Shown here: positions 24,633-43,737 of the stretch, piece after piece | How positions within the stretch are numbered: position 1 is the first letter of the stretch | How the letters are laid out: every line of letters starts with the position of its first letter | DNA from: a virus | Virus record (IMG/VR): IMGVR_UViG_3300031787_000185 | Location: 1 to 50,340 of that record | DNA length: 50,340 bases | Reading direction: 5' to 3' (one strand) | Program-made: the position numbers and the translations under genes | Notes under the pieces: generated by a model | Database searches by the model: none | Seen by the model: the letters and a program-made list of their open reading frames with translations, nothing else | What the model was told of the DNA's origin: nothing

Positions 24633-25250
24633 CTAAGACACAACAATATTTACTGAATCTGAATAAGAAGGATTTGCGGCAGAGAATGCATACACAGTAG
24701 CTGTTCCTGCAGAAATGCCTACAGCAAGGCCTGTGTTAGTAACTAATGCGATAGTAGGATCTGAAGATACCCATACAATTCCTTGAGGAGCTGTAGGAGG
24801 TGTTATTGAAGCTACTATCTGTAGAGAAGCTCCTATTCCTAACGCTGCTTCAGTAGTTGCAGGTACTGTAATTGATAATCCTGTTACAGCAATTTGCGCT
24901 GGTGTTTGAGGGCCTACGTTTACAGTGCATGTTTTGGCTCCTGTTTCAGGGTCTGTTGTTTCTGTTGCAGACACGGTTAATCCGGAATTTATTAATGTCC
25001 CGAAGTCTGTAGCTGTAATCATTCCTGAATTTAACGCACATGTTACTCTATCCATCCATTGTTTTGCGATTTCGCAAGAACAACAGTCTTCTAGTGAAGT
25101 GTCTCCGTAGCTATACATTCTGATATTTCCAGCGCTATCAATGTAGTATAGCACGTTGTTTTTATCAGTATTGATGAATAATTTTACCGTACCTGCTGCA
25201 GGTAAGCTTGCTAACATTGTAGCTTCTGATGCTATTGAAATTTCTCCCAT
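24633..25250 (-). CDS. Virion surface protein with C-terminal Ig-like (Big_2) domain and Cys cluster
   Basis: The 205-residue protein has a beta-rich N-terminal part (PAAGTVKLFINTDKNNVLYY), then a Cys cluster (LEDCCSCEIAKQWMDRVTC) and a linker. The last ~90 residues read like a bacterial Ig-like group 2 domain (VTGLSITVPATTEAAL, GIVWVSSDPTIALVTNTGLA, GISAGTATVYAFS). Such domains are frequent on phage capsids and fibres and weakly bind carbohydrate. It begins the run of Cys-rich neighbours, and the CCSC motif suggests a disulfide or metal site tying it to the next proteins. Confidence 0.75.
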   Translation of the reverse strand: MGEISIASEATMLASLPAAGTVKLFINTDKNNVLYYIDSAGNIRMYSYGDTSLEDCCSCEIAKQWMDRVTCALNSGMITATDFGTLINSGLTVSATETTDPETGAKTCTVNVGPQTPAQIAVTGLSITVPATTEAALGIGASLQIVASITPPTAPQGIVWVSSDPTIALVTNTGLAVGISAGTATVYAFSAANPSYSDSVNIVVS

Positions 25251-25265
25251 TTTCTTTAATTAATT

Positions 25266-25607
25266 TTATGTTACTATAGTATTTACTGTAGAATACAATG
25301 CTGCAAACTCTGATTCAGATACACATCCAAGGAACTCGTTTGTTGAGTTATTGTACAACTTAACATATCCTGATTGACATGTAAATGTATTATCATGGAA
25401 TAGCTCAGCGTCGGCAGGCGTTAAACATCCTTGATGTTTTCCTTCAGCGTCATAAACAGCTACTAATCCAGCAGGGCAGCAAGAACATTTTTCCTCGCAT
25501 CCTTCTGAGCAGTCATTACAGTCGTTGCATTCTCCGCAACCTGCAGATTCTTCTAAACATTTTTTCTTTAAATATTTAGCGTATGTTTGATTATCTTCGT
25601 AAGGCAT
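25266..25607 (-). CDS. Cys-rich protein with a duplicated C-terminal motif
   Basis: The 113-residue product has nine cysteines between residues 17 and 44, in a CxxC-rich run (GCGECNDCNDCSEGC, then CSCC). This looks like a metal-binding or disulfide knot. After it come two related ~25-residue units: GLVAVYDAEGKHQGCLTPAD and GYVKLYNNSTNEFLGCVSES, each preceded by a Cys. These look like a tandem duplication of a small beta hairpin with a conserved Gly-Cys. There is no signal peptide, and the role is unknown. The context points to an assembly or docking part of the appendage. Confidence 0.7.
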   Translation of the reverse strand: MPYEDNQTYAKYLKKKCLEESAGCGECNDCNDCSEGCEEKCSCCPAGLVAVYDAEGKHQGCLTPADAELFHDNTFTCQSGYVKLYNNSTNEFLGCVSESEFAALYSTVNTIVT

Positions 25608-25620
25608 TTTATATGATTTT

Positions 25621-25992
25621 TTAATTGCAATTACATTCGCATTGATTACAAAGTACTTTTATTTCCTCTATAATCTTACATAACTCAGCATCGGATAGAC
25701 AGGCATCTAATTTTACGTCAACGCATTTTACGGCTTCTCGGATGTCCAAAAATAGTTTATTATTTTCTTTCTTCAAAGAAGAAAATGATATTTTTTTAGG
25801 ACATGTAGTAACTTTTGCTTTAAGCTTAATAAATGAGGGCGTGTTTCTTTGTAAAACATCAATATACATCATTAACATAAAGTAGTCTGAGTTATCAGTA
25901 TCTCTACCAAATGTCTTATCTTCCGCAAATTTAGCTGCATATTCCGTAGAACAGCATTTTGCTTCGCATATTATTTCGTCTAAACACTTCAT
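25621..25992 (-). CDS. Cys-rich helical protein (123 aa)
   Basis: The 123-residue protein is mostly helical with cysteines at both ends: C3, C9, C13 and C14 in the N-terminal segment (CLDEIICEAKCC) and CNQCECNCN at the C-terminus. The middle (DNSDYFMLMMYIDVLQRNTP) is ordinary helix. It directly follows the collar protein and precedes the Cys-knot protein. The Cys-rich tail resembles those of its neighbours, which suggests a shared docking mechanism. No family is recognised. Confidence 0.65.
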   Translation of the reverse strand: MKCLDEIICEAKCCSTEYAAKFAEDKTFGRDTDNSDYFMLMMYIDVLQRNTPSFIKLKAKVTTCPKKISFSSLKKENNKLFLDIREAVKCVDVKLDACLSDAELCKIIEEIKVLCNQCECNCN

Positions 25993-26835
25993 TTACCACA
26001 TTTTTATTACATAAAGAGCAGCGAAATAAGGAGGTCTGTTTTCGTGAGCATCTCCATTCCCTGCATCATCTACTGTTATTCCGGTTGTATTAGAGTCTGT
26101 TTCTGTTATTCCAATAAAGGCATTTTGTGTTTGAACACCTGTAAACGATGAATTTACAGTCACTGCTGCTGAAGAAGGGTCTGTTGTTCCACTGTGACTA
26201 TGAGCTCCGTCTGTACTTGTAGAATTTCCACTTGCTGTAGAGCTTGTTCTTACGTTGGCACCTGTTCCTCCTCCACCGTCAGTAATTCCAATAACACCAG
26301 TTGAGTGTTCGTGACCACCGATTGTACTTGTAGTGAATGTATGCGTATGACTTCCTCCTGATCCAGCATGGCCATGGCCAGGGTCATCTACAGGGTGATT
26401 GTGCCCTGTGTCTGTTAAATTGTGTGTATGCCCATTATCAGTAATACCATGTGTATGTACAGGTAATTCATTTACTGTTAACGCAACTGTGTCTGAACCT
26501 CCTGTGTCGTCAACTGAATATGAACCACCTGCTTGAACGATAAATCTATCAGTAAAGTTCGGAGTGGTGAAATTTACCTTCGTTTGAGGGTTCATATACG
26601 CTTGACCGTTACAGATAGCCCATCCTTCCCAACATCCTACACCGTAACCATCAGTGTCGAATTGAGCGATATCCGAAGCTGACTCTATTAGTAAGATAGG
26701 GTGTCCGCAGATAAACGGCTTAATGCTTTCTGTAAGAGCATCTACTTGTGATTGTAATTGAACTATAATGTTGTCATACTGATTGTCGCTTGAACATTTA
26801 TAGCAGTTTCCGGTGCATTTTTTATTTTTGCACAT
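25993..26835 (-). CDS. Tail-collar fibre tip protein with His-x-His ladder
   Basis: The 280-residue protein has a Cys-rich N-terminus (C2, C7, C11, C14) and a short coiled region (QLQSQVDALTESI). A tail-collar domain follows (CWEGWAICNGQAY, TTPNFTDRFIVQAG), as in T4 gp12 and related tips. Seven H-x-H motifs come next, at residues 127, 136, 145, 154, 163, 175 and 212, the first five exactly nine residues apart. T4 gp37's tip holds seven iron ions through such motifs, so a metal-stabilised needle is likely. It ends with the typical NRPPYFAALYVIKMW. It should be a receptor-binding tip. Confidence 0.85.
   Translation of the reverse strand: MCKNKKCTGNCYKCSSDNQYDNIIVQLQSQVDALTESIKPFICGHPILLIESASDIAQFDTDGYGVGCWEGWAICNGQAYMNPQTKVNFTTPNFTDRFIVQAGGSYSVDDTGGSDTVALTVNELPVHTHGITDNGHTHNLTDTGHNHPVDDPGHGHAGSGGSHTHTFTTSTIGGHEHSTGVIGITDGGGGTGANVRTSSTASGNSTSTDGAHSHSGTTDPSSAAVTVNSSFTGVQTQNAFIGITETDSNTTGITVDDAGNGDAHENRPPYFAALYVIKMW
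26341..26457 (-). repeat. 27-base periodic repeat encoding the His-x-His ladder
   Basis: This part of the collar gene encodes five His-x-His units spaced nine codons apart (for example GHTH, GHNH, GHGH). Two more units lie further on, near 26305-26313 and 26194-26202. The regular period points to growth by tandem duplication, and unit number may vary between related phages. Confidence 0.75.
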
Positions 26836-26861
26836 ATTTCATATATTTTATTAGGTTATAA

Positions 26862-27350
26862 TTATGCTGCTGTTACCTCAATAAGAAGAAAAGTATCTTT
26901 GGCTATCGCACCATTAGCATCAGTAACTTTAACTTTCATTAAAGAAACCCCTCCAGCTCCAGATATTGCTGCTACAAAAAACGAATTTGGCTCATTGATT
27001 GCCCAAGTAACAGTAGATAAGTTAGATGCTCCTGATATACCGAAAGCATTGCGTCCAGATCCTGCTAAAGTATCAGCAATAGACCATTCATAAGTATAAG
27101 GGGCTGTACCTCCTGTTATAGAAGTACCTAAAACAAAAGGTAATCCTTCTGGATCAGGTTGAGTTATTGTGACATCAAAGTTGCCGCCTTGACCTTGAGG
27201 ACCTTGAGGGCCTTGGATACCTTGAGAACCTTGAGGACCTTGAAGGCCTTGAAGGCCTTGGATACCTTGATGACCACGAGGGCCTTGAGGGCCTTTTATC
27301 CCTATTTTAGAAACTACCTTTTGGCAAAATGTTTTCTTTTCGCAGTTCAT
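26862..27350 (-). CDS. Collagen-like fibre protein with PKD/Ig-like domain
   Basis: The 162-residue protein starts with two cysteines ([10 protein letters not shown]) in a short basic segment. Next come 13 collagen-type triplets (residues 17-55, mostly Gly-x-Gln: GPQ, GLQ, GIQ), predicted to form a trimeric triple helix. The C-terminal 100 residues are a beta-sandwich domain ([33 protein letters not shown]) like the PKD/Ig-like 'GGxxPYTYxW' domains of Bacteroidota surface proteins. Phage collagen segments act as stiff fibre shafts. Located next to the collar tip, it is probably part of the same appendage. Confidence 0.8.
27189..27302 (-). repeat. 9-base tandem repeat encoding collagen Gly-x-Gln triplets
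   Basis: Thirteen imperfect 9-base units (ccttgagg-type on the + strand) encode consecutive Gly-x-Gln triplets. Short tandem repeats such as these easily gain or lose units, so shaft length may vary between isolates. The + strand reading of this stretch is low-complexity and is not a gene. Confidence 0.9.
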
Positions 27351-27378
27351 TTTAATTAGTTTTTATGATAATTTTTAA

Positions 27379-27933
27379 TTAGTTTTTACAATCACAACAA
27401 GAACATGTTTCTTTAAGTAGATCTACTATTTTAGTAGCTCTATTCATTCTTCCACAGTCAATACTGTACTCAAGAGATTTAAGTAAGTCGTTCAACTCAA
27501 TCATTTCTTGTTTTTTAAGTTTGTCTGTGGTTCCGATGTTTTTTGAGATAATTTTATCAATGCAGCATGATACTGTTTTTGTCATAAACTGAGTATGGTA
27601 TGCTGTTTTCGTAAATTTAACTCCTTTCTTATCTGTGCCTGTAATCACTAATTTTAAATTATACTCACCGCTTTCTATTTCCTGCATGTTTAACATGTAT
27701 GGAAGTATCTCGTATGCGATACCGTCTTTATTTGGAAAGTCTGGGTATACATTTATTTGAAACTCTGTTTTATCTGGAGTGGTGATGAATAATATTGATG
27801 TTTCTATATCTGACGTTTGGATGTTTGGTGCTCCAAAGCCTCCTTGATTTGAAGAAGAGTATTTACCGGTACAATCTGTAACGACAAATGATTTATTTTC
27901 TTCTATTGCAGATATTTTAAGCTGTAAACTCAT
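27379..27933 (-). CDS. Cys-tailed virion protein, possible appendage adaptor
   Basis: The 184-residue protein has a beta-rich N-terminal domain (MSLQLKISAIEENKSFVVTD, ETSILFITTPDKTEFQINV) followed by VSCCIDKIISKNIGTTDKL. A helical region comes next (KKQEMIELNDLLKSLEYSID, CGRMNRATKIVDLLKE), and the tail CSCCDCKN is Cys-rich. I associate this general plan (beta domain, helical part, Cys-rich end) with Bacteroidota phages, but I cannot name a characterised family. It is the first gene of the Cys-rich run and follows a good promoter, so it may be the base or adaptor on which the other appendage proteins assemble. Confidence 0.7.
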   Translation of the reverse strand: MSLQLKISAIEENKSFVVTDCTGKYSSSNQGGFGAPNIQTSDIETSILFITTPDKTEFQINVYPDFPNKDGIAYEILPYMLNMQEIESGEYNLKLVITGTDKKGVKFTKTAYHTQFMTKTVSCCIDKIISKNIGTTDKLKKQEMIELNDLLKSLEYSIDCGRMNRATKIVDLLKETCSCCDCKN

Positions 27934-27985: not shown

Positions 27986-30691
27986 TTATAAATCAGATTC
28001 ATCTTCTACTTTTTCCGTCTTAACTCTTTTTGTAAGGTCTGGGAATTGAGACATAAGGTCTTTTTTAGCCATGTCTTTTCCTGACTCGTACAATTTAGCC
28101 ATTTCTTTTATTTTCTCATCGTAAGGGATATCTTTGAACTTTTCCTGCATGATGTAAGGGGTTACTAGCATAAGTCTGTATTGAGAAGCTTGTTTCATGT
28201 AATATTCATGCTCTTCATTTGTTAACTTCACTTTTTCTGACTTAGTTGTCCTTAATCCGTTTACCCTTTCAGTGTATGAAACGTTTACATTCTTTTCTAC
28301 GGCACTAGGGAATAGTTTAGGTCTATTCTCCTCTTTAAGGCTTTGAGTATATTCGTAAAGCTTGTATTCAGGCGTATCCTTATCTAATTCTGACATTTTA
28401 AGGAAATCAACGTTATTTGCGATTACCCTTCCTAAGTAGTTATCAAAAAACACGTATTTCTTTTTCTTTAAAGCCTCGTTTTCTGCCGCTAAGTTGAAGT
28501 ATTTGTTTTTTAAATCTTTGGATTGGAAGGCGAATTTATAACCTAGTATATTTGCTAAATTTTCACCGTAATCTAGGTCCTTATTGTACTGTTGTTTTAC
28601 ATTCTCATCCATTTGCGTAGAGAATGTTTGAGCTGTTGATGGTACTGCGCCTCCTAATAATACAGAGGCAAGGTTTATTGTGAATTTATTCCATTTATGA
28701 CCTTCTTTATCTGTTAATGCCTGTAAAAGTTGATTTGTACCTGACAGGAAGGTATTGTCTACGAATGATTGGAAACTAGCTCCGAGTAGTTTTATATCCT
28801 GCTCGATAGACATAATCTCATTGGACATTTTCTGTTTATTGTTTTGTCCATGGAAAGCATGTGCGTATGCTCCGAGAACAACACCCGGAACACCCATTGT
28901 TTTTAATTCTATGATAGTATCTCCTTTTTTCGATGACCATCCTTGAAACGCTATTCCTCTCATGAATGCGGAGATGTTTATTCTATTCGGACCACCCATT
29001 ACTTTCTCTGTTGTATCTGCTGCGTCGAAATCATCATCTCCATAAGCGCCTGACATTAATCCATTAGCGATCATGTTTATGGCTGCGTATCTTAATGCTG
29101 TTCCAGCTACATAATTACCAGTAGCTTCGTATACAATCCTCTGCCTCATATTAGGGTCTTTCTCCCTTGAGGCTTTTAACGCTCCACTCAGCATAGCGTA
29201 TTCAGGTAGTAATAGTTTCTGCGCTGAGTTAAAGATGGCTATCGGTGTTTTAACGAATGGCATTACACCGACACTTATTGAATGTAATGTTCCTACTAAT
29301 AATTTTGCTGCTAGAGGAGGAACACCCTGCTCTTCTGTTAGCATTTTTTGAAGACTGTAAGGATTTACTTTAAGTGCTTTTACTACGTTGTTACCGAATA
29401 TAAACTCGCCTTTAAATGTAGCCTCGTCTGCTTTTTTCTTAGCAAATTCTTTTGATGCTGCGTCTGGATTTTCTATGAAATCTGTTTTATCGAATCCTTT
29501 CAATCCTTTAGATTCAGCAATACTGTTTAACTCACCGAAATATATAGCAGTGTTAAAGGCGGCATCCGTAGCTCCAAGAACTCTTGATACGGCATCCGGA
29601 TGTACTCTTAATATAAAACCTGCCATCTTTTTAAGTTTAGCAGTTGGTGTGTTTTCTATTTTTTGTCTTAGCTTAGCTACAGCATCTAACGTGTTTGTAG
29701 GAGCTAAGTCTCTGATGTCTGCATTACCATACTTCAGAGTAGATGCTATTTTCATAGCTATCTTTTTACGCTGCTGTATAGACCCTAATGCTCTTTTTCC
29801 GAATGGTAATGGATTTTGTTTACGTATAATAGAGTTTACGCCTAGAGATAATACCTCTGATGAGAAATTACCCATCAACCGTATTGCCGTGTCTGATAAA
29901 CCACCTGTTAAGTTGTTTATCAATGATACACCTTTCATCAGGTTAAGGTTTGCTGCTGATACCATGTCGTAATACCAAAATGAGCTTGGCGGCATCAGTA
30001 CGTTAAGGTCGTATGCTGCTTTTGTAGCGTTGTCCTCGGCTTTCTTCTTTTTATCTACTAAGGCTCTTAGTTTTTCGTCGTAAGATTTATTTTGCTCTTC
30101 GGTAAACTTACCTTCTTTTTTTAGGTCTTTTACTTCATTTCGAAGCTTTGACATTTCCACATCTATGGTATCTAACTCTCTATTCGCTACCTGTAATTTT
30201 TCTACGGCAGCATCGAACTCTTCGGATACCTCTACCGGCAACCTCACTGCTTCAGCAAATGCTTTTTTAACGTCAGCATCGTTGATAAATCCTGTTTGGA
30301 TTGCTTTCTCAGCTAGAGACCTAGCCATAGATGCTTTTTGTTCTTTATTAGCTCCTTCTACCTTATCAGTTATGTCTTTTATTTTTTCCTCGTACTTCTT
30401 TTTGGCCGCCTCTATGTTTTCCTTACCTTTCTCTATAGAAGGAGTTTTTACTTTTTTATCAAAGGTGTAGCTAGCTGGTATCACTCCGCTTTTTTTTCCT
30501 TTTTCTATGATTGGATCGGTGAATGATTTTGGGTCAAAGTCTAAATTTGGAAATTTAGCCTTCACTTCATTCATAGCATATTTCAATGATTTAGTAGTGT
30601 CACCTTGTGTTTGAAGAAATGCCTCTTTAAATGATTTTACACCATGGTTATAAGCTTCCTGACTGTCTTGTATATTACATTTTACACTCAT
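27986..30691 (-). CDS. Large internal virion (cargo/ejection) protein, 901 aa
   Basis: The N-terminal 250 residues are long charged helices (KGKENIEAAKKKYEEKIKDI, QVANRELDTIDVEMSKLRNE). Residues about 255-620 are mixed, with hydrophobic and Gly/Ala-rich helices (SAANLNLMKGVSLINNLTGG, AKLLVGTLHSISVGVMPF, YVAGTALRYAAINMIANGLM). The rest is basic and charged. No catalytic motif is clear. Very long helical proteins encoded between the tail stabilization gene and fibre genes are typical of capsid-internal proteins ejected with DNA in podoviruses and crAss-like phages. Membrane-active helices fit a role in crossing the envelope. Confidence 0.65.
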   Translation of the reverse strand: MSVKCNIQDSQEAYNHGVKSFKEAFLQTQGDTTKSLKYAMNEVKAKFPNLDFDPKSFTDPIIEKGKKSGVIPASYTFDKKVKTPSIEKGKENIEAAKKKYEEKIKDITDKVEGANKEQKASMARSLAEKAIQTGFINDADVKKAFAEAVRLPVEVSEEFDAAVEKLQVANRELDTIDVEMSKLRNEVKDLKKEGKFTEEQNKSYDEKLRALVDKKKKAEDNATKAAYDLNVLMPPSSFWYYDMVSAANLNLMKGVSLINNLTGGLSDTAIRLMGNFSSEVLSLGVNSIIRKQNPLPFGKRALGSIQQRKKIAMKIASTLKYGNADIRDLAPTNTLDAVAKLRQKIENTPTAKLKKMAGFILRVHPDAVSRVLGATDAAFNTAIYFGELNSIAESKGLKGFDKTDFIENPDAASKEFAKKKADEATFKGEFIFGNNVVKALKVNPYSLQKMLTEEQGVPPLAAKLLVGTLHSISVGVMPFVKTPIAIFNSAQKLLLPEYAMLSGALKASREKDPNMRQRIVYEATGNYVAGTALRYAAINMIANGLMSGAYGDDDFDAADTTEKVMGGPNRINISAFMRGIAFQGWSSKKGDTIIELKTMGVPGVVLGAYAHAFHGQNNKQKMSNEIMSIEQDIKLLGASFQSFVDNTFLSGTNQLLQALTDKEGHKWNKFTINLASVLLGGAVPSTAQTFSTQMDENVKQQYNKDLDYGENLANILGYKFAFQSKDLKNKYFNLAAENEALKKKKYVFFDNYLGRVIANNVDFLKMSELDKDTPEYKLYEYTQSLKEENRPKLFPSAVEKNVNVSYTERVNGLRTTKSEKVKLTNEEHEYYMKQASQYRLMLVTPYIMQEKFKDIPYDEKIKEMAKLYESGKDMAKKDLMSQFPDLTKRVKTEKVEDESDL

Positions 30692-30697
30692 ATTATT

Positions 30698-33600
30698 TTA
30701 GCAATCTTCTGTTGTTGTTATTAAATCATCGAAAGCATCTACTTTGCTTACCCAATCCTTACCTTTCGTTTTCTCAGCAATGTCTTTTAATTTTTGTTCA
30801 GTAGCCTTTCTTACTTCTTCAGCAAATTCTTCTGAATTAATAAGCGAATTTACGGGTTCTGCTACACTTTCCAAAGCTGTTTTTTGTTTTTTATTCAAAT
30901 AGCTATCAATAGCATTTATCTGTCTTTGCTCAGAGGCTGCTTGCACGCCTTCCGGAGAAGACATCATTTCTTTAGTGTGAATGTACAGATTAGCTAATGA
31001 TTTTGCTATGGTAGTAGTGTTTTTATCATTATTCTCCCTTAATCTAGAAGCTTTGTTTAATAAATCTTGCTTTAATGTAGGGTTATCTACCTCTTTAGCT
31101 AAAGTTTTCATTCTATCAACTAAAAACAAGTTGAATGTATGAACCATTTCAGGAGGCATTGGCTTCTTAGCGTTTTCATCTAACATTAAATTAGCTGCAT
31201 CCATAATCATATTGGAAGCTTCTAATTCATTGATGTAAGTCCTAATGGTTTCTCTGATTTGCTCCTGATCCATCTTTTGATAAAACGAAGCTTCTTGAGG
31301 TATCATTTTATTTATCTCGTCATACGTAGTATTTTCTTCTCTTCGTTGAGATTGTTTTCTTTTACCTTTTGATTCCTTAGTTATATCTTCCTGAGTAATC
31401 ACAGGCATTCCTGTTTCGGCAGCCGCTTCTACTTCTTTACCTGTTTCAGCTTCTTGCTCTTCAGCTTGCTTTTCCTGAGCTTTTGGCTGTGGTTGAGCTT
31501 TAGCTTTAGATAACTCAGATTCTACACTGTCTCTAAACTTAGTTTCATCAATGTTTCCACTTTCATATAGTTTTTTATATACGGGATTTGTCTTTATTTT
31601 ATCTAAAGCTATCTGTGTGGCTTCTCTAACTCCATAACCGGCATCGATAGCGAAATTAACGCCTTTTACTGTTAGGTCTACTAACTTATTAATAATTTCA
31701 GGGCTTGCTCCTGGTATAGCTGATGATAACGCTAGGTTTTTATATCCCTCGCCAAGTAATTTTTCTTTTACCATTTCTCCTAGGGCTACTACCTGAGCTT
31801 TTAACTCTCCTTTTTTAATATTATCTCCCTCTGCTCCGGTAGCTACTTTTTTAGTAAAAGGACGGAGCTTTTCTTCCATCATTTTATTAAGCTCATTACG
31901 ATATGCTGTGTATGTAGGACCTGATATTTTACCGTCCATTTTAGCTTTATATGCTCTAGCTAGTACGCCTACATACTTATCTTCAATGAGTTTTTTTAGT
32001 TCAGCAGGTGTTTTATTAGGGTATTTTTCTTTATTGTATCCTTTTAAAACTTCTACGTCATCATCCATTTTTTTAACAGTAGCTGCGTCTTCTGTTACAT
32101 TATCCTGTTCTGTATCTTCTTCTTCAGCTATTGTTTGTTCAGCGGATATTTGAGCTTGTGTTTTGGTTGGAGTAGGTTTTTTTTCTGCTACAACTTGTTC
32201 TACTACTTTTTCTTCTGGTGCTTGAAGAACTCCACCTGCTGTAGTCTCTTCTGCGCTTGTGGTTTCGATAGGTTCGGCTTGGATAGGTTTTTCCCCGATT
32301 CCGATTTCACTTGGTATCCCTTGGATGTTTTCTTGATTGACATTTTCTTCTATTTTAGGTTGTTCTACTTGTTCTCCTGATTCTAATTTTTTTAAGTCAG
32401 CTTCTAAAGCATCGTTGTTCTTCCTGTAATCCACATAAGAGATTTTCTCGTTAAAATAATTCTGCTTATTGTCTTGTATTTTCTTTTGAACTTCAGCTAT
32501 CTTATCGTCTACATTTACGGTAGGTTCTTCTTTTTTAATTTCTTGAGCTGGTTTTTCTTCGGTAGTGATTTCAGGTGCGGCCTGAGTTGTTTCTACAGGC
32601 AATTCGATAGGCTGTGCTTTTTGAGTGTCATCGACCTCAAATAAACCCTCACGCTGCATTTTATTTTCAGATTCAGGTATTTCTACTTTAGGTTTCTTTC
32701 TAGCCTCTAATTCGCTTTGTATTGATTTTAGATACTCTTCTTCGTTTAAAGCTTCTTCTTGTTCCTTCATTGGATTTGAATATATAGATTCAATTTCATT
32801 ATCTATATTATCTAAATCTTTCTGAAGAATAGATTTACTATCCTCTGATAAAGGTATATTTGTAATTCCATCAATTAATTTTCTTTTTTTATCAATTAGA
32901 GCATCTACTGATTTTTGCTGATCAGATGATAATGATTCATATTTTATCTTTTCTGATTTAACTAAATCGGCTTCCTCGGATGTTAAATCTTTTAGTTTAT
33001 CAGAAAGTATTTGTTTTGACTCTAAAGGTATAGCTTCTGATACTAAGTCATTTTCTAATACTTGTTTTTCACTTTGAATTTCAACAGCTCTTTTAAACCC
33101 GTCCCTTGTTCTTGATAATTCCAATGCTGCAGGAGCAGAAGACATTGATACGCCTGAACCTAATCCAATTATAGCAGCGTCTAATACGCCTTCCATTAAA
33201 TCTATATTTGGCTTTGCTCCGGAGAATTTATCCACTGCATTTTGAGCGTATTGAGTAGCGGCTTCTGATATACTTTCTTCTGCAGTTGTTCCAATATATT
33301 TTTTAAGTACAGGTAAATAAACTTCTTTAAAACCATTTTTAACTATCTCTTTACCTTGTTCAACACCTTCTTTTAATAATATATCCTTAGTCATGCTACC
33401 TAATTTGGTAACACCGAAATTCTCAAACACACCCTCTAAAAGACCATTAGCTAAAGCATTTTCTACTTTAGAAGACTCAGTCATATTTGGGTTTTGAGTA
33501 TCTAACTCTGATTTTTTATCTGCTGCAAAGACGGCTCCTCCACCCATTATTGATTGAGCTGTTGTTAATCCTGCAGCGTTACCTAAAGCTAAAGAAATGC

Positions 33601-34324
33601 TTATTGGTGCACTCTCTACCACAGAATTAGCCAATAAACCAAAAGCTTTTGAGTAGTCTCCTGATTTAAAATAATCTGTTATACCTTTATCATATTTTTC
33701 ATTTAGCTTTTTTTGACTTTCAGCCACTGCATTATCATAATATTTCGCTATTTCGTTTTCTGGTAAACCAAGTGTATTAGCTAATTCTTCTGATGATGCT
33801 GATATATCTAATCCAGTTAATTCAGCTATTTTATTTTGTGGATAAGCAGCTATATCGTAAATAAACGCAGGGGTTTTGGCTAACATAGAGCCTAACCTAG
33901 AAGAACCTCTTAAAAAAGAAGATGATAAATCTTCTAACATAGAAGTAGATTCTTTTTCTTTTGGTATATTGACTGTTTTTTCAGCAGTTGGGGTTGAACC
34001 TGCTGTTGTAGTAACAGGTCTTATTTCGGTAGATGGAGTCAATGTGTTTCCAAGGGCTGTCTTTTGGCCAGCCATTTTAGGTGCTTCTGCAAATGGATTA
34101 AATGACGTTCCTGGTTTTACAGTGTACGTTTCAGTCGGAGTGTCTGTGGATACCGAAGGAGTAGCTGTTAATCCTGATGTACCACCTTCCAAAGGTAATT
34201 GTGAACTTGACGGTAAAGGTGTGGGCTCTACTTTTTTTTTTAATATACCCAACGGGTCTTCTTGTGACTGCGTAGGTTTTTTACCTAATATCCCCAATGG
34301 GTCTTTCACATTATTTTCTTCCAT
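30698..34324 (-). CDS. Very large internal virion (cargo/ejection) protein, 1208 aa
   Basis: This is the second longest protein in the window. The N-terminus carries a short motif twice, DPLGILGKK and DPLGILKKK (residues 8-16 and 23-31), then a Pro/Thr-rich flexible stretch. About residues 225-405 have Gly/Ala-rich helices (AISLALGNAAGLTTAQSIMG, AIIGLGSGVSMSSAPAAL) that could be membrane-active. The middle (about 520-720) is acidic, Glu/Pro/Gln-rich and probably disordered; the C-terminal third is helical. This build fits an ejected cargo protein. The doubled motif might be a docking signal for packaging or scaffold release. Confidence 0.65.
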   Translation of the reverse strand: MEENNVKDPLGILGKKPTQSQEDPLGILKKKVEPTPLPSSSQLPLEGGTSGLTATPSVSTDTPTETYTVKPGTSFNPFAEAPKMAGQKTALGNTLTPSTEIRPVTTTAGSTPTAEKTVNIPKEKESTSMLEDLSSSFLRGSSRLGSMLAKTPAFIYDIAAYPQNKIAELTGLDISASSEELANTLGLPENEIAKYYDNAVAESQKKLNEKYDKGITDYFKSGDYSKAFGLLANSVVESAPISISLALGNAAGLTTAQSIMGGGAVFAADKKSELDTQNPNMTESSKVENALANGLLEGVFENFGVTKLGSMTKDILLKEGVEQGKEIVKNGFKEVYLPVLKKYIGTTAEESISEAATQYAQNAVDKFSGAKPNIDLMEGVLDAAIIGLGSGVSMSSAPAALELSRTRDGFKRAVEIQSEKQVLENDLVSEAIPLESKQILSDKLKDLTSEEADLVKSEKIKYESLSSDQQKSVDALIDKKRKLIDGITNIPLSEDSKSILQKDLDNIDNEIESIYSNPMKEQEEALNEEEYLKSIQSELEARKKPKVEIPESENKMQREGLFEVDDTQKAQPIELPVETTQAAPEITTEEKPAQEIKKEEPTVNVDDKIAEVQKKIQDNKQNYFNEKISYVDYRKNNDALEADLKKLESGEQVEQPKIEENVNQENIQGIPSEIGIGEKPIQAEPIETTSAEETTAGGVLQAPEEKVVEQVVAEKKPTPTKTQAQISAEQTIAEEEDTEQDNVTEDAATVKKMDDDVEVLKGYNKEKYPNKTPAELKKLIEDKYVGVLARAYKAKMDGKISGPTYTAYRNELNKMMEEKLRPFTKKVATGAEGDNIKKGELKAQVVALGEMVKEKLLGEGYKNLALSSAIPGASPEIINKLVDLTVKGVNFAIDAGYGVREATQIALDKIKTNPVYKKLYESGNIDETKFRDSVESELSKAKAQPQPKAQEKQAEEQEAETGKEVEAAAETGMPVITQEDITKESKGKRKQSQRREENTTYDEINKMIPQEASFYQKMDQEQIRETIRTYINELEASNMIMDAANLMLDENAKKPMPPEMVHTFNLFLVDRMKTLAKEVDNPTLKQDLLNKASRLRENNDKNTTTIAKSLANLYIHTKEMMSSPEGVQAASEQRQINAIDSYLNKKQKTALESVAEPVNSLINSEEFAEEVRKATEQKLKDIAEKTKGKDWVSKVDAFDDLITTTEDC

Positions 34325-36812: not shown

Positions 36813-39800
36813 TTACTTTAATTTTTTATATTGAATAGATGTGTTTGTTAATGTAAATTCTGACGCTAAATTATGAATTATTTTGTAAAAAATCAATCTA
36901 TCTTGAAGTCTTGGTCTATTTATATCAACAGAGCCTAAAATTCTAGGAATAAATGCTTCCCATCCATCATAATATTTTAAATACATTGTTCCAAGAGTAT
37001 TATCTACAAAGCATTGCAATGTGTTTAAATCTTTCTTGTAAAATTCTATGCGTGTAGGTTTTTGTGTTTTCGGAGAATTTATTCTCATGCGAATAAACTC
37101 CTTACCCCAGAATTGCTCAGGAGCAGCGCCTTGAGTAACCTCAAATATGATTGGTGAGTTGTTGATAGTGTAACCTTCATGTAATTTAAAAGTATGTAAA
37201 TCTTTCACTCCATACGTGTCATTACCTTGTGAATATATTCTATCAAATCTATAATCATACTCGCCATAGAATGCCATTGTTTGCTTACCAAATACGAATA
37301 ATTTATCTGCGTCTCCTCCTATATACAACCAATATTCTTGATATCTTCTATCATACACGGCTGCCATCTCTGTTTGTATGCCTGGCTGAACTTTAGTCAA
37401 GCCTTCATTGTAAATTTTATTGTAGTAATCTAATCTACCAATATCTCTGCAGAAGCTTCCGTTGAACATAAATACAGAGTCTTTATTCGGGAAGAATATA
37501 GCCTCTTGTCGTGCTGAGCTATCATCACCTTCTGATACAGGAACAAACCCTTCTGCTACACCTCTCCACATCTCATCGCTTATACCTGTGTCTTTCGTAA
37601 TCCACAGCTGTGCTTTAACGAAAGAATCAGAAGCCATGTAACCTATTTCACCTGAGTTAAGGTCTGATAATATTGATTTTTTAGTTAACAGTAAACAAAT
37701 ACCTTTTTCTGTTAATGCATAAATATTCTCTCCTCTTTCTGAAGTTGCATCCCAAGCGTATTTTATTTCACCTTGATCATCATCAATATCGAAAGCATTG
37801 TTTGCTGGGAATGTTTTTAATCCAGGAGAATCTTGGACATTAATAGCTCTTGCGAGAGACCACATTATTCTTGTTCTAAACTCTGTCTTCTCAATGAATC
37901 CGAATTTTGGTTTAGAGAAAAACTCTATTCTAGGTTCTGTAGAATAATCAGGATTTATTTGTTGTAAGAATCTAAATCCACCCCATTTCCATTGATTCTT
38001 TTCGTCCGCACCGTAATCATCTTCGTAATCTTGGTAAAGCCCGTTGTTTACTATCGTTTTATCGATATCCCATCGATTAGGTCTCATGACGTAATTAATC
38101 AGTGGGAAGAATTGATTAGGATATGATGAATTGTACGCTAAGTGACATGCTGACCTTGACTCTACGGTAAACATCACGCATAGTTGCCTTAAAAAGCCTA
38201 GCTTAAACCATACTTCATCTTGGATTGCATTTACTGCAGCGCCTGCTTTTCTGATTGTATAGTGTCTCGAATTTATTTTAAAGTTTTTAAACGGCAATCC
38301 TATACCTAAAGCAAATTGTGTTTCTGCTGCCTTGTCTTTCGCTGCAGATTGCTTGTCTATTGGCGCAAATATTGTTTCTCCTACATAGGTATCGAAACCG
38401 AATACTCTAATCGGAGCTGTGTCGTCGTATTTTATAATGACTAATGAATTTGCAGGTGGCACAGAACCTGGTACATCAAATTGTAACTCAAAGAATCTAT
38501 CTAAGTTATCAATATTGGTATGTGTATACATTCCGTAAACATCACCATTGTAAGAACCTAATGACGTGATGTCTGATAAAATAGTTGCTCTCTGAGTTAA
38601 TGTTTTATACGTTACGTTAATCCATTTCTGAACTACACCATCTGGTTTTTTGATGTATATGTATCTATCTACGTTAGCACCGAAGTCTGTAGAGCGAGGG
38701 GCAGGGATGCTGTCTTCCCATCTTTCATCTACAAGTTGGAATTTCTCACCGGCCAAGCCTGTTGTTCTACCAATGATAGATTCTAATTTCTGATAGTGTG
38801 ATGTTTGTTTATATTGTTGGATATTTTGGTCATTTATCTGCGCTCCAACTCTTACAATATTAATTATGTATAATGGCTCTGTCCAATCTTGAAGTCCTGA
38901 GTCTTCAAAGTTAGATTCAGAATTACCTCCAACAGAAGCTTTTCCGTAAACATTGATATTTGTTTCAATCTCTATGTATGTACCTCTTCCGTCAGCAACT
39001 CTTCTTACTTGAGCGATATCTACAAGTCTGTTTCCTTTATCAGAATGAGCACCGAAGGTTAATGGGTCTTGACCTAGATTTCTAAACTTATCATGTCTGA
39101 TATAGTTATAGCCATCGCCTCCAGATATACCCATGTTAGCATCTTCTGATGGATTTATCTGATTATTTGGATCTGCTGCAAGGTCTCTAAGCATCCTTGC
39201 GTATGATATCATGTCAATACATCTATCTCTATCTCTTCCCGGAACAGCAATGTTATCTTCCGCTGCAAAGAACTCAGAAAAGAATCCTAATGGAGATACG
39301 AATTGTAACTTGTAATTTTGTGGGTTATCTATGATATCATTAACTGTTTCACTAGATACAATTCCTGTTTCTATATCTGGAGAAAAGAACCAGAATTTGT
39401 TTTGTTCTTTGCCTCCAAGGCTTTGGTCTGTTAATGTTTTAAATTTACCTTTAGTTAAAGCATAATACCCTAAACCTTGACATAATACTCTCTTAGCTGC
39501 GTTTGTTCTAACAATAGAGAATGCTTTTGCCCATTTAGGGAAGTTTTGTATACCTGCAACAACTAATCCTTTTGCGTAGTAGTCAGGAGAGAATCCAGTT
39601 GGTCTAAAATTATAAGCATCTGTTGACGGTATTGGTGCTCCTGTGATTGGGTCTCCAACAACATCTCCTTTAGCTACTTTTATTGTTGTTACATAGTTAT
39701 GACCTGAAACATCAGGGTCATTTTGACGCACCGGTGTGTATGGTTGGTAAGAAACAGATACAAGTGCAGCGGTTACGTCAGCACCGTGGTTTTCTATCTC

Positions 39801-41321
39801 TGCATTTGTCTCATCGCAGTCTTCTGTTACTTTTGGTTCACCTCTCGTGCCTGTTATACCAGCTATTCTTCCTGGATGTACAATATTTTTAAAGTCACAC
39901 TCGTTGGATTTAAAAGTAGGGTCTCCTAAGTCAAATACTTCATGTGTTTGAGTTACTGCTGCTACCGTAGAATCTGCTGCTTTTACTGTGCCTCTTAAAG
40001 AATAATCATTCGTTTCTGATGAGATAGCATCGCGTCTATTAGGAAATTGATAGTTTTTTAACTGTGGTATTTCTGTAGTAAAACCTTTAGTGCCAACACC
40101 ATCGTATACAGCTACACCGAGACCATACACCTCTCCACTCATTGCTGATTTCTTATAAGTATGATTCCATGGATCGTTATATCCTGCCTTATATAATTTG
40201 TCTATTACAGGAAACCCTTGCTTACCATTAATCTCTTTGAATTGCAATTCAGCTTCCTTAGAAGCTAATTTTACGTTCATTAAAACTAATCGTCTATCAA
40301 CATATCGAATTGATTTCGCTGATTCAACTTCTACGAGTGTTCTTGATTCATCTTCAGCAGATAGTGCGATGTTAGTGTTTGATTCTTGAGGGTCTACATA
40401 TTCTCGTACACTTATTTCATTTGGAGATATTTCTATCTTTGCTACTATCACTCCATTTGGAGTAAAGTCAAGGCCTGCGCCTGCATTGTATGATATACGT
40501 TTTATCTCAATGTAATCGTAATTATAGATATTTGTTACTCTAAATCTTAATTTAGGAGCAAAGGCTGTTACTGATGATGGATTAGGTGGTCCACCGTAAG
40601 TTTTTACCCATGGATATATCCTACTTTCACTAGATAAAGACTGTGTAATAGGAATCATAGGAGTAGCCTGGGACCAACCTGTTCTATCACCTTCCTTAGA
40701 AGAATATCTTATTTGATATTGATAATGACCTACAGGTAATCCCCCTCCACCACCTACGTTTACGTTTTCTATAAATACAGGTATGTCTAGCGGTGACTGT
40801 AAGTTAATTTGATATAATAATGGGTCGAAGTTTGAGAAATATTTATTTGGGTCAGAGATAAGAGAGTCCAACATATCTTTAATATTAAAGATAAATGGAG
40901 GTATCCTGTTATCTGTAATGAAAATTTCACCTTTATCGAAATCCTCATTAACATCAATTTGTAATGGATAATCAGTTCTTAAATCAAAGTTTATGGATTG
41001 CAATACAATAACTCCATTAATACGAACTATTCTTGGAAAAGCAGGGTTTATTGGAACCCAAAACTCAACTTTACTGTCATTAACAGCTCTAGCCCCTATA
41101 CATTTATAACCAATTGCAGAGGTGGTGTTTGAATGTATTATAACCTCACCTTTTATCTTTTCTAACCCACCGGTATTACCATCGATAGAAACAGGTCTGC
41201 AGTTTCTGCCGTCATAATACACTCCTGTAGCAGGTTGTGAAAATGCTAATTCAGGATCAACATCTACGTTTGCTCCTTTAGAATATGTCGATAAATGATG
41301 TGGTTGATTTTCTTGGTTCAT
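36813..41321 (-). CDS. Tail muzzle/stabilization protein (1502 aa)
   Basis: This is the largest protein here. It is beta-rich with aromatic residues (GGLPVGHYQYQIRYSSKEGD, VYGLGVAVYDGVGTKGFT) and repeated short motifs across its length. The C-terminal ~350 residues have a propeller-like pattern (ENIYALTEKGICLL, QEAIFFPNKDSVFMFNGSF, AVYDRRYQEYWLYIGG), as in P22 gp10-type tail stabilization proteins. Proteins of about this length sit directly after the ring proteins in crAss-like phages, where they form the muzzle that closes the tail and holds the cargo. The assignment rests on size, order and the propeller-like end, not on a motif match. Confidence 0.7.
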   Translation of the reverse strand: MNQENQPHHLSTYSKGANVDVDPELAFSQPATGVYYDGRNCRPVSIDGNTGGLEKIKGEVIIHSNTTSAIGYKCIGARAVNDSKVEFWVPINPAFPRIVRINGVIVLQSINFDLRTDYPLQIDVNEDFDKGEIFITDNRIPPFIFNIKDMLDSLISDPNKYFSNFDPLLYQINLQSPLDIPVFIENVNVGGGGGLPVGHYQYQIRYSSKEGDRTGWSQATPMIPITQSLSSESRIYPWVKTYGGPPNPSSVTAFAPKLRFRVTNIYNYDYIEIKRISYNAGAGLDFTPNGVIVAKIEISPNEISVREYVDPQESNTNIALSAEDESRTLVEVESAKSIRYVDRRLVLMNVKLASKEAELQFKEINGKQGFPVIDKLYKAGYNDPWNHTYKKSAMSGEVYGLGVAVYDGVGTKGFTTEIPQLKNYQFPNRRDAISSETNDYSLRGTVKAADSTVAAVTQTHEVFDLGDPTFKSNECDFKNIVHPGRIAGITGTRGEPKVTEDCDETNAEIENHGADVTAALVSVSYQPYTPVRQNDPDVSGHNYVTTIKVAKGDVVGDPITGAPIPSTDAYNFRPTGFSPDYYAKGLVVAGIQNFPKWAKAFSIVRTNAAKRVLCQGLGYYALTKGKFKTLTDQSLGGKEQNKFWFFSPDIETGIVSSETVNDIIDNPQNYKLQFVSPLGFFSEFFAAEDNIAVPGRDRDRCIDMISYARMLRDLAADPNNQINPSEDANMGISGGDGYNYIRHDKFRNLGQDPLTFGAHSDKGNRLVDIAQVRRVADGRGTYIEIETNINVYGKASVGGNSESNFEDSGLQDWTEPLYIINIVRVGAQINDQNIQQYKQTSHYQKLESIIGRTTGLAGEKFQLVDERWEDSIPAPRSTDFGANVDRYIYIKKPDGVVQKWINVTYKTLTQRATILSDITSLGSYNGDVYGMYTHTNIDNLDRFFELQFDVPGSVPPANSLVIIKYDDTAPIRVFGFDTYVGETIFAPIDKQSAAKDKAAETQFALGIGLPFKNFKINSRHYTIRKAGAAVNAIQDEVWFKLGFLRQLCVMFTVESRSACHLAYNSSYPNQFFPLINYVMRPNRWDIDKTIVNNGLYQDYEDDYGADEKNQWKWGGFRFLQQINPDYSTEPRIEFFSKPKFGFIEKTEFRTRIMWSLARAINVQDSPGLKTFPANNAFDIDDDQGEIKYAWDATSERGENIYALTEKGICLLLTKKSILSDLNSGEIGYMASDSFVKAQLWITKDTGISDEMWRGVAEGFVPVSEGDDSSARQEAIFFPNKDSVFMFNGSFCRDIGRLDYYNKIYNEGLTKVQPGIQTEMAAVYDRRYQEYWLYIGGDADKLFVFGKQTMAFYGEYDYRFDRIYSQGNDTYGVKDLHTFKLHEGYTINNSPIIFEVTQGAAPEQFWGKEFIRMRINSPKTQKPTRIEFYKKDLNTLQCFVDNTLGTMYLKYYDGWEAFIPRILGSVDINRPRLQDRLIFYKIIHNLASEFTLTNTSIQYKKLK

Positions 41322-42151: not shown

Positions 42152-43024
42152 TTAGTTTTTATATTTCCAGATAAACCCAGCACTTGTTTTTCTAATACCC
42201 TTACAAACAGAAGAGATAGAAGTAGATGTTTTGCATACTACATCAGCAGCTTCTTTTATTGATTTATATTCTCTTATAAAGTTACCATTTAAGTCGTACT
42301 GCTCCACACATGTTGCTGTTTTACCTATATTTCTCTTTTTAATACATTCAGATATAACATCTAAATCTCCGTATCTAAAAGTAATACCTTTACTTTGATT
42401 ATAAAAATTTACTTTCTTACATATTTTAATAATAACATGTTTAAATACACCTGTATCTCTATAAGCATCGGAAATACTATTATATGTTTTTATTTTTATT
42501 CCGTCAAGCGAATAAGAAGATACTTTTTTAGAGCTTTTCTCTATAGCACCTTTTATTGTATTTGGATGAAGAGGTTTACCTTTTCTTGCATCACTTAGTT
42601 GTTTTTTCTGCTTTTCAGATATTTTTCTACCTTTATTAGATATACTTAATTTTAATCTTGTTTCTTCAGTTATTTTTTTACCAAACTTAATTCTTCTTTG
42701 TTTTTCTATAGTTTCACGTATTGGTGTAGCGCCTTGTCCGCCATCATTCATGTTTAATAATTTAGCCCCACAAGATTTATAAAGTTTTATGTAATGTTTT
42801 TCCCAAAACTCCCAATCGCATAACGGTACTTCGTCTATAATTTCTAATATTGGTAGTAAGCCATTTAATTTTAATGATTTTATCCAAGAACTCTTTCTGT
42901 TAACAACATTCTCATTTATATGTCTATTAAATCTTTGTAATGGCTTGTTTGACTTACCAACATATCTAACTTGCATTGTGTTAGGGCATAATAAAGTGTA
43001 TATATGAGTTGTTTCTACAATCAT
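42152..43024 (-). CDS. GIY-YIG homing endonuclease with NUMOD repeats
   Basis: The 290-residue free-standing nuclease opens with IYTLLCPNTMQVRYVGKS, the GIY-YIG motif (I8-Y9 and Y21-V-G23), with R31 and a downstream Glu region (WEKHYIKLYK) before LLNMNDGGQG. Two NUMOD3-type repeats follow (ITEETRLKLSISNKGR and ISEKQKKQLSDARKGK). Two NUMOD1/IENR1-type DNA-binding repeats come last (YNSISDAYRDTGVF and YKSIKEAADVVCKTS, each preceded by a YxLxG strand). It would cut a homologous, endonuclease-free locus and spread by repair. It sits in an intergenic space in the ring-protein operon and leaves both flanking genes intact. Confidence 0.92.
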   Translation of the reverse strand: MIVETTHIYTLLCPNTMQVRYVGKSNKPLQRFNRHINENVVNRKSSWIKSLKLNGLLPILEIIDEVPLCDWEFWEKHYIKLYKSCGAKLLNMNDGGQGATPIRETIEKQRRIKFGKKITEETRLKLSISNKGRKISEKQKKQLSDARKGKPLHPNTIKGAIEKSSKKVSSYSLDGIKIKTYNSISDAYRDTGVFKHVIIKICKKVNFYNQSKGITFRYGDLDVISECIKKRNIGKTATCVEQYDLNGNFIREYKSIKEAADVVCKTSTSISSVCKGIRKTSAGFIWKYKN

Positions 43025-43029
43025 GTTAT

Positions 43030-43737
43030 TTACTGCTGTGGTTCATTAACAGATACAATTTTAGGGATATTTTGCTTAACAGCTTCATCGTTTCCGTCAT
43101 TAGATCTATCTTGTTGAAAAAGAAAACTAAATCTAGCTAGGTCTGTTACTTGTCTTTTTAAGACATGCAGTAATTCCTGTGGAAAATAAAATGGTTTATC
43201 AATATCTATTTTTTCAAGAGGGTCAATTGTTTGATAAATACCTATCTCTACTTCTTTTACCGGAACTGTTTCAATACCTACTAGATAAATAATATCACCT
43301 GTTCTGTACCAGTATGGATTTTTAGGGCTTGGTTTAGTATGTTTATCTAAGTTCAACCACTGAAGCTCTCCTGGGGATGTTCTTTGTATTGTTTTTCTTG
43401 CAAACTCAGGGGCGCAGTTTTCGTCAGGGTTATAATATGCAATATATTCAACACCACCGTCTCTATCGTAATCAAATATATTAGCAGGTAGTTCGATATA
43501 CTTTCTGTTCTTAATTATATTTGGATTTGAATTAACTGACGCTTTTTTCACGGGCACGCCTGCGTATGAAGCTAGGAATGCACCTGAATCTCTCTTAGCA
43601 TTATGTTGCGATAATAACTGGTTACCAACAAGAATAACCCAATAAGCTACTTGAGCCTGGCTTACCTGTTTGTCATCAAATGTTTGTTTTATAGTAACGA
43701 GGATATCGTCTACTATTATCCTTAGCCTATCTGTCAT
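43030..43737 (-). CDS. Tail ring/adaptor protein (235 aa)
   Basis: This protein starts with helices (RLRIIVDDILVTIKQTFDDK, QAQVAYWVILVGNQLLSQHN). A beta-rich centre follows (KYIELPANIFDYDRDGGVEY, TGDIIYLVGIETVPVKEVEI), with a long helix near the end (FPQELLHVLKRQVTDLARFS). The same plan as the neighbouring 256-aa and 269-aa products suggests related ring proteins stacked between portal and muzzle. It overlaps the start of its neighbour by four bases. The family name is inferred from order and architecture. Confidence 0.65.
   Translation of the reverse strand: MTDRLRIIVDDILVTIKQTFDDKQVSQAQVAYWVILVGNQLLSQHNAKRDSGAFLASYAGVPVKKASVNSNPNIIKNRKYIELPANIFDYDRDGGVEYIAYYNPDENCAPEFARKTIQRTSPGELQWLNLDKHTKPSPKNPYWYRTGDIIYLVGIETVPVKEVEIGIYQTIDPLEKIDIDKPFYFPQELLHVLKRQVTDLARFSFLFQQDRSNDGNDEAVKQNIPKIVSVNEPQQ

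Follow-up and report, generated by a model that had tools for sequence, protein, structure and literature searches.

Why should six neighbouring phage genes, whose products look like parts of an appendage, each encode a cluster of cysteines? The question is raised by positions 24,633 to 27,933 of the virus record IMGVR_UViG_3300031787_000185, which we analysed over its 50,340 nucleotides (the window). An earlier note had seen there six minus-strand genes for otherwise unrelated proteins, whose shared cysteine-rich tags might dock them together through disulfides or a metal site into one adhesion device. Our analysis makes it fairly probable that these genes of a crAss-like podophage specify both the hub at which its tail fibres dock and the fibres themselves, and that cysteines lock the assembly. 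The six open reading frames (ORFs) do form a single minus-strand run, as described, with the transcription order A (184 amino acids, aa), B (collagen, 162 aa), D (collar tip, 280 aa), C (123 aa), E (113 aa) and F (immunoglobulin (Ig), 205 aa). Their features are as follows.

27379..27933, minus strand: protein A, 184 aa, a beta-sandwich followed by a three-helix cysteine-rich C-terminal domain (AlphaFold2 model, relatives, fold match)
27388..27405, minus strand: C-terminal cysteine tag CSCCDC of protein A (of 28 aligned relatives, 22, 26 and 25 have Cys in the corresponding columns)
26862..27350, minus strand: protein B, 162 aa, a collagen-like fibre with the N-terminal cysteine tag MNCEKKTFC at 27324-27350 (Pfam Collagen)
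25993..26835, minus strand: protein D, 280 aa, a tail-collar/short-tail-fibre-like tip with the N-terminal cysteine tag MCKNKKCTGNCYKC at 26794-26835 (PHROG tail fibre/collar)
25621..25992, minus strand: protein C, 123 aa, a small helical cysteine-rich protein with the motif C-[LIV]-[ST]-x14-C-x2-C (family alignment, profile matches)
25627..25650, minus strand: C-terminal cysteine tag CNQCECNC of protein C (CESCECGC, CGGCSCNC and CESCSCGC in three block orthologues)
25266..25607, minus strand: protein E, 113 aa, with a cysteine-rich N-terminal half (25476-25559) and two C..G.V.V....GC repeats (found in block-bearing phages only; eight invariant Cys columns in four orthologues)
24633..25250, minus strand: protein F, 205 aa, a small domain with CCSC (25074-25085) and a C-terminal Big_2 Ig domain (Pfam Big_2)

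Chance as the cause of the cysteine clusters is rejected by random-draw and permutation tests. Cysteine makes up 4.31% of the residues within the block versus 1.01% in the remainder of the window. A density of at least four Cys per 20 residues is reached by seven of the 57 window genes, and five of these seven belong to the block (permutation p = 0.0015). For five block genes, random residue draws at the window Cys frequency reach a density as high as the real one in no more than 0.35% of trials. All motifs quoted in the earlier note are present, for example CCSC in the Ig protein (residues 56-59), nine Cys within residues 17-44 of the 113-aa protein and CSCCDCKN at the end of A. However, its claim of a cluster in every one of the six genes holds beyond chance for five only. 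The collagen gene B has two Cys, a density that 28% of random trials reach, and this pair taken alone is therefore meaningless; homologues of B do carry Cys clusters. The clusters were also said to be usually terminal, but the Ig and 113-aa proteins have theirs inside the chain.

The block is not peculiar to the window. All six genes occur in the same order in three divergent uncultured phages (L187, 3300049795_000028; L188, 3300021247_000536; L206, 3300032116_000883), with identities of 15-50% per gene to the window. Here the window cysteines are kept in 97 of 138 comparisons (70%) versus 866 of 3063 (28%) for other residues. The CCSC cluster of the Ig protein, counted earlier among the shared features, is less constant, since CCxC is gone in L188; the Ig domain itself is missing in L187 and L188. 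The N-termini of the fibres are rich in cysteine in all three phages: MCDTCNKKKCCC, MCKSCGKKSCTSCC and MCNICHKTVCCC in the B orthologues and MCGKCKNNSCSGGCC, MSGNCCNC and MCNKCGKVNCCC in those of D. In L206 the collagen fibre begins with MCNICHKTVCCC and the collar tip with MCNKCGKVNCCC, almost one tag on two unrelated bodies. A short extra protein that stands between C and E is richly tagged with cysteine in L188 (MCNGKCNGKCNEC) but untagged in L206.

Relatives were first reached by a degenerate DNA pattern, built by hand, that encodes the motif of protein A, TG-x-Y-x5-GG[YF]G-x-PN, and an alignment-based scan then gave 66 loci. Searches by tblastn with A, C, the portal and the major capsid protein against 50,697 named phages found no match, nor did one with an A protein from another lineage, because the divergence of these families exceeds what tblastn can bridge. 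When viral contigs were scanned with one protein at a time, only a near-identical contig matched. Pooling the DNA-pattern, alignment-based and later scans, we obtained 58 distinct A-family proteins (more than 10% different). Most have a C-terminal cysteine tag, and the majority adjoin fibres with MCxC-type N-terminal tags and a small cysteine-rich helical protein. The AlphaFold2 model of the window A protein (predicted local distance difference test, pLDDT, 88) shows a beta-sandwich, three helices and a loose cysteine tail. With a mean identity of 25%, the Cys at window positions 123, 124, 160, 177 and 182 are kept in 22 to 26 of 28 relatives, and up to nine conserved Cys lie in the one three-helix domain. 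A, C and E all lack a model in Pfam, PHROG and NCBIfam. At least one A protein, that of L070 (8176-9507; 443 aa), combines two TG-Y..GGYG-PN beta domains in a single chain. L061 has an A of similar length, and in L072 a second A-type gene directly adjoins the first.

The proteins of the C family are small and helical and share a fixed C-[LIV]-[ST]-x14-C-x2-C end (AlphaFold2 model of the window C, pLDDT 77). Scanning by the C motif, with no information on A, showed C proteins next to cysteine-tagged fibres where the upstream DNA was long enough, and next to a cysteine-tagged A wherever A falls inside the stretch. The description of the block proteins as otherwise unrelated needs correction, since the helical domain of A and protein C resemble each other: profile comparison scored 33.1, whereas 200 column shuffles gave at most 12.8. 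Judged from sequence profiles, the two share one helical cysteine scaffold, and common descent is likely. The descent is not proved, because the score drops to 15.1 with the cysteines masked and cysteine composition could explain the likeness. In L030, L032, L042, L053, L058, the window, L188 and L206, a stretch of about 30 to 110 aa is inserted between the second and third Cys-bearing helices of C.

Are the tags gained and lost together, as parts of one device might be? For the statistics the 58 A proteins were clustered at 45% identity into 49 clusters. A collagen fibre was present or absent in 23/4 clusters with a fibre N-tag versus 4/18 without (p = 3e-6), and a C-type protein in 20/7 versus 4/18 (p = 1.5e-4). 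For the C-tag of A the association with the fibre N-tag was 24/15 versus 3/7 (p = 0.09). From these counts, protein C and the fibre tag go together as a linked set, whereas the A tag is more general and is common also beside untagged fibres. Strict co-loss of the A tag and the fibre tags had been suggested by the first 41 loci, where an N-tagged gene stood within the next four genes for 25 of 36 C-tagged A but for none of five untagged A (p = 0.006), and where five of 290 other genes carried an N-tag; at the cluster level it is rejected. The expected co-variation was therefore found for fibre N-tags, collagen fibres and the small cysteine-rich protein, but not for the A tag. Several phages, for example L032, L042 and L058, have two or three tagged fibres in tandem.

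Evidence that A is a virion protein comes from cultured phages. The fold of the A model matches, in BFVD, structural proteins of the Cellulophaga phages phi17:2 and phi14:2. In phi14:2, gp098 is the sole match of the A profile among the ORFs searched (E 2e-8) and is annotated as structural from tandem mass spectrometry; in phi17:2, gp058 is an A homologue (E 9e-9) annotated as structural by similarity to phi4:1. Both are thus like A in homology and virion annotation, but have fewer Cys (6 and 3) and no adjoining collagen fibre. In phi17:2 (L203, 20323-22095) four adjacent structural genes, gp055-gp058, which include the A homologue, all have Cys clusters or N-terminal Cys. Taken together, the recurrence of the block, the co-occurrence of the N-tags and the virion annotation speak for the proposed docking into one device, while its corollary of strict co-loss fails.

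What kind of device this might be is suggested by the rest of the virion. The 50.3-kb window encodes a P22-like portal (Pfam P22_portal, E 9e-19) and an SU10-type major capsid protein (SU10_MCP, E 2e-8), and in addition two proteins of crAss type.

36813..41321, minus strand: crAss-type muzzle protein (Pfam crAss_MUZ, E 7e-18)
43030..43737, minus strand: crAss ring-2-like tail barrel protein (Pfam CrAss_Ring_2, E 5e-4, under the curated cut-off)

Because portal, major capsid, ring-2-like and muzzle proteins are present, the window is a divergent, uncultured relative of the Crassvirales. In the solved virion of phi-crAss001 the tail hub proteins A and B (THA and THB) form an A2B fibre-docking hub, twelve of them around the tail barrel on rings R1/R2, which holds residues 1-26 of the fibre gp22 and is stabilised by disulfides (PMC10172136). 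A and C are probably the counterparts of THA (gp38) and THB (gp39), as suggested by gene order, by one fold match and by profile matches that are weak but specific. In phi14:2 the order is gp100 (ring 3/4), gp099 (auxiliary capsid protein, AUX) and then gp098. Pfam shows the same order in L021; L018 agrees by position, with an AUX-sized gene that Pfam leaves unnamed, and A directly follows AUX also in L034. In phi-crAss001, AUX gp36 is followed by a homing endonuclease and then by THA gp38 and THB gp39. Among 27 phi-crAss001 proteins the profiles ranked gp38 first for A and gp39 first for C. Family against family, A matched THA with E 0.0024, the C-terminal domains being in register, and C matched THB with E 0.0057; these matches are weak, and there was no cross-match. 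With its 11 Cys, gp38 ends in NNCKSPTSNCGCYG, a cysteine-rich C-terminus like the CSCCDCKN of A. The BFVD match at rank 10 for the A model is A0A7M1RYA1 of phage cr111_1 (206 aa, E 3e-3, template modelling score 0.51), which agrees in phage and length with QOR59144.1, the gp38 homologue of cr111_1 (206 aa). In both systems a beta-domain plus helical protein with a cysteine-rich C-terminus is paired with a smaller helical protein, and the Ring-AUX-hub order is seen in relatives of the window.

Several points weigh against this assignment. In the window, A comes after a 901-aa cargo-like gene, and its immediate neighbourhood showed no auxiliary capsid gene. The hhalign probabilities are weak (12 for A-THA, 6.5 for C-THB), and hidden Markov models of THA and THB match nothing in the window. 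Foldseek searches of the PDB gave no crAss001 hub chain among the 50 matches listed for A and no crAss chain among all 15 matches for the C model; PDB sequence searches with the A and C profiles yielded chance matches only. The N-terminus of gp22 has no Cys, and THB has only two. Furthermore, the hub genes of the window lineage stand after cargo genes and beside fibres, not beside rings, and its fibres are of the collagen and collar-tip types. It is nevertheless improbable that A and C serve to attach an appendage of the head or neck, unrelated to the tail hub, and occupy the slot after AUX by coincidence: the weak sequence link to THA and THB and the cargo-like genes ahead of A in the window and several relatives would fit it, but it leaves unexplained the gene-order match, the top-ranking crAss001 matches of both proteins and the fold match to cr111_1.

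If A and C are a THA-like and a THB-like subunit, as is probable for each, they most likely form hubs in a collar round the tail barrel, and the ring-2-like protein is the place where such hubs would be expected to sit. The collagen fibre B and the collar tip D would plug their N-termini into the hub, a docking geometry that we infer. Three cysteine-bearing parts, namely the C-terminal domain of A, the scaffold of C and the N-terminal tags of the fibres, would then converge in the hub and lock it. Disulfides made after the virion leaves the reducing cytoplasm are the most likely bond, since they occur in the solved relative phi-crAss001; zinc sites shared between the parts are possible. E probably belongs to the same appendage and F is a probable distal protein of it; both would lie further out than the hub.

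Zinc is a serious rival for the chemistry, because the cysteines have CxxC/CxC spacing. The same hub may, though this is the less likely course, use its clusters as CxxC/CxC knuckles, structural zinc sites by which the tags fold and are joined while the phage is assembled in the cytoplasm. The CxxC...CxC spacing typical of zinc knuckles is seen in fibre tags, for example MCNICHKTVCCC and MCDTCNKKKCCC, and phage assembly takes place in the reducing cytoplasm. However, Pfam and NCBIfam recognised no known zinc-site family, and the phi-crAss001 hub has disulfides. Somewhat more doubtful is that the cysteines act inside each protein only, as internal disulfides or metal sites, or as ties of fibre trimers like those of collagen cystine knots. 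The up to nine conserved Cys in the three-helix domain of A and the fixed C-x16-C-x2-C spacing of C could indeed be satisfied internally. Yet the tags lie at the very ends of the chains, which the A and C models show as tails of low confidence; N-tags go with C and collagen; and in L206 two unrelated fibres bear almost one tag. The terminal position of the tags and their occurrence on different fibres thus make a purely internal role less likely.

A further, more tentative idea is that the portable MCxxCxKxxCxC N-tag might be a universal plug by which collagen fibres, collar tips and short adaptors enter a cysteine-rich hub, covalently or via shared zinc. If so, phages could exchange their host-recognition fibres by changing what follows the tag. 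The bodies of B and D match the families of phage collagen-like fibres and of T4 gp12/gp10-type collar tips (for the GXY repeats of B, Pfam Collagen 29.3 bits against a cut-off of 27.2), but both have an N-terminal cysteine tag instead of the usual attachment domain.

The earlier statement that no appendage of such build had been described does not stand, since the disulfide-stabilised fibre-docking hub of phi-crAss001 is already known. In the literature on crAss tail hubs and disulfides we found only this structure, and none on cysteine-rich fibres of Bacteroidetes phages. What appears to be new is that uncultured Bacteroidota phages have a large family of hub-like proteins, as yet unnamed, with its accompanying cysteine-tagged collagen-type fibres, and the fact that different fibre types bear the cysteine tag. 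Our analysis ties a widespread, unnamed virion gene set to a solved structure and proposes how such phages attach and exchange host-binding fibres. The motifs TG-x-Y...GG[YF]G-x-PN of A and C[LIV][ST]x14CxxC of C, and the fibre tag MCxxC, provide handles for finding receptor-binding proteins, and the homologues in cultured Cellulophaga phages make the hub proposal testable.

The named A homologues belong to phages that infect Cellulophaga, and in the genome collection the A family is found in two Bacteroidetes bins and one archaeal bin. These bins suggest Bacteroidota as the host phylum of A-bearing phages, and no more. The archaeal case, an A-family gene at L093 8956-9666 in a bin labelled Candidatus Aenigmatarchaeota, is likely a mis-binned Bacteroidota phage.

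Among the neighbours of the block are, downstream, one small gene of membrane type and one lysis gene of amidase type, and, upstream, large cargo-like genes (27986-34324, minus strand). Their nearly Cys-free 901- and 1208-aa products resemble crAss-type cargo proteins, with no convincing Pfam or PHROG family match. A GIY-YIG/NUMOD homing-endonuclease gene (42152-43024, minus strand) adjoins the ring-protein genes of the window; in phi-crAss001 the homing endonucleases gp37 and gp41 lie between the hub and ring genes. Finally, protein D (25993-26835, minus strand) contains a run of GHTH/GHNH/GHGH repeats. Such repeats are a feature of phage fibre tips with metal bound along the trimer axis.

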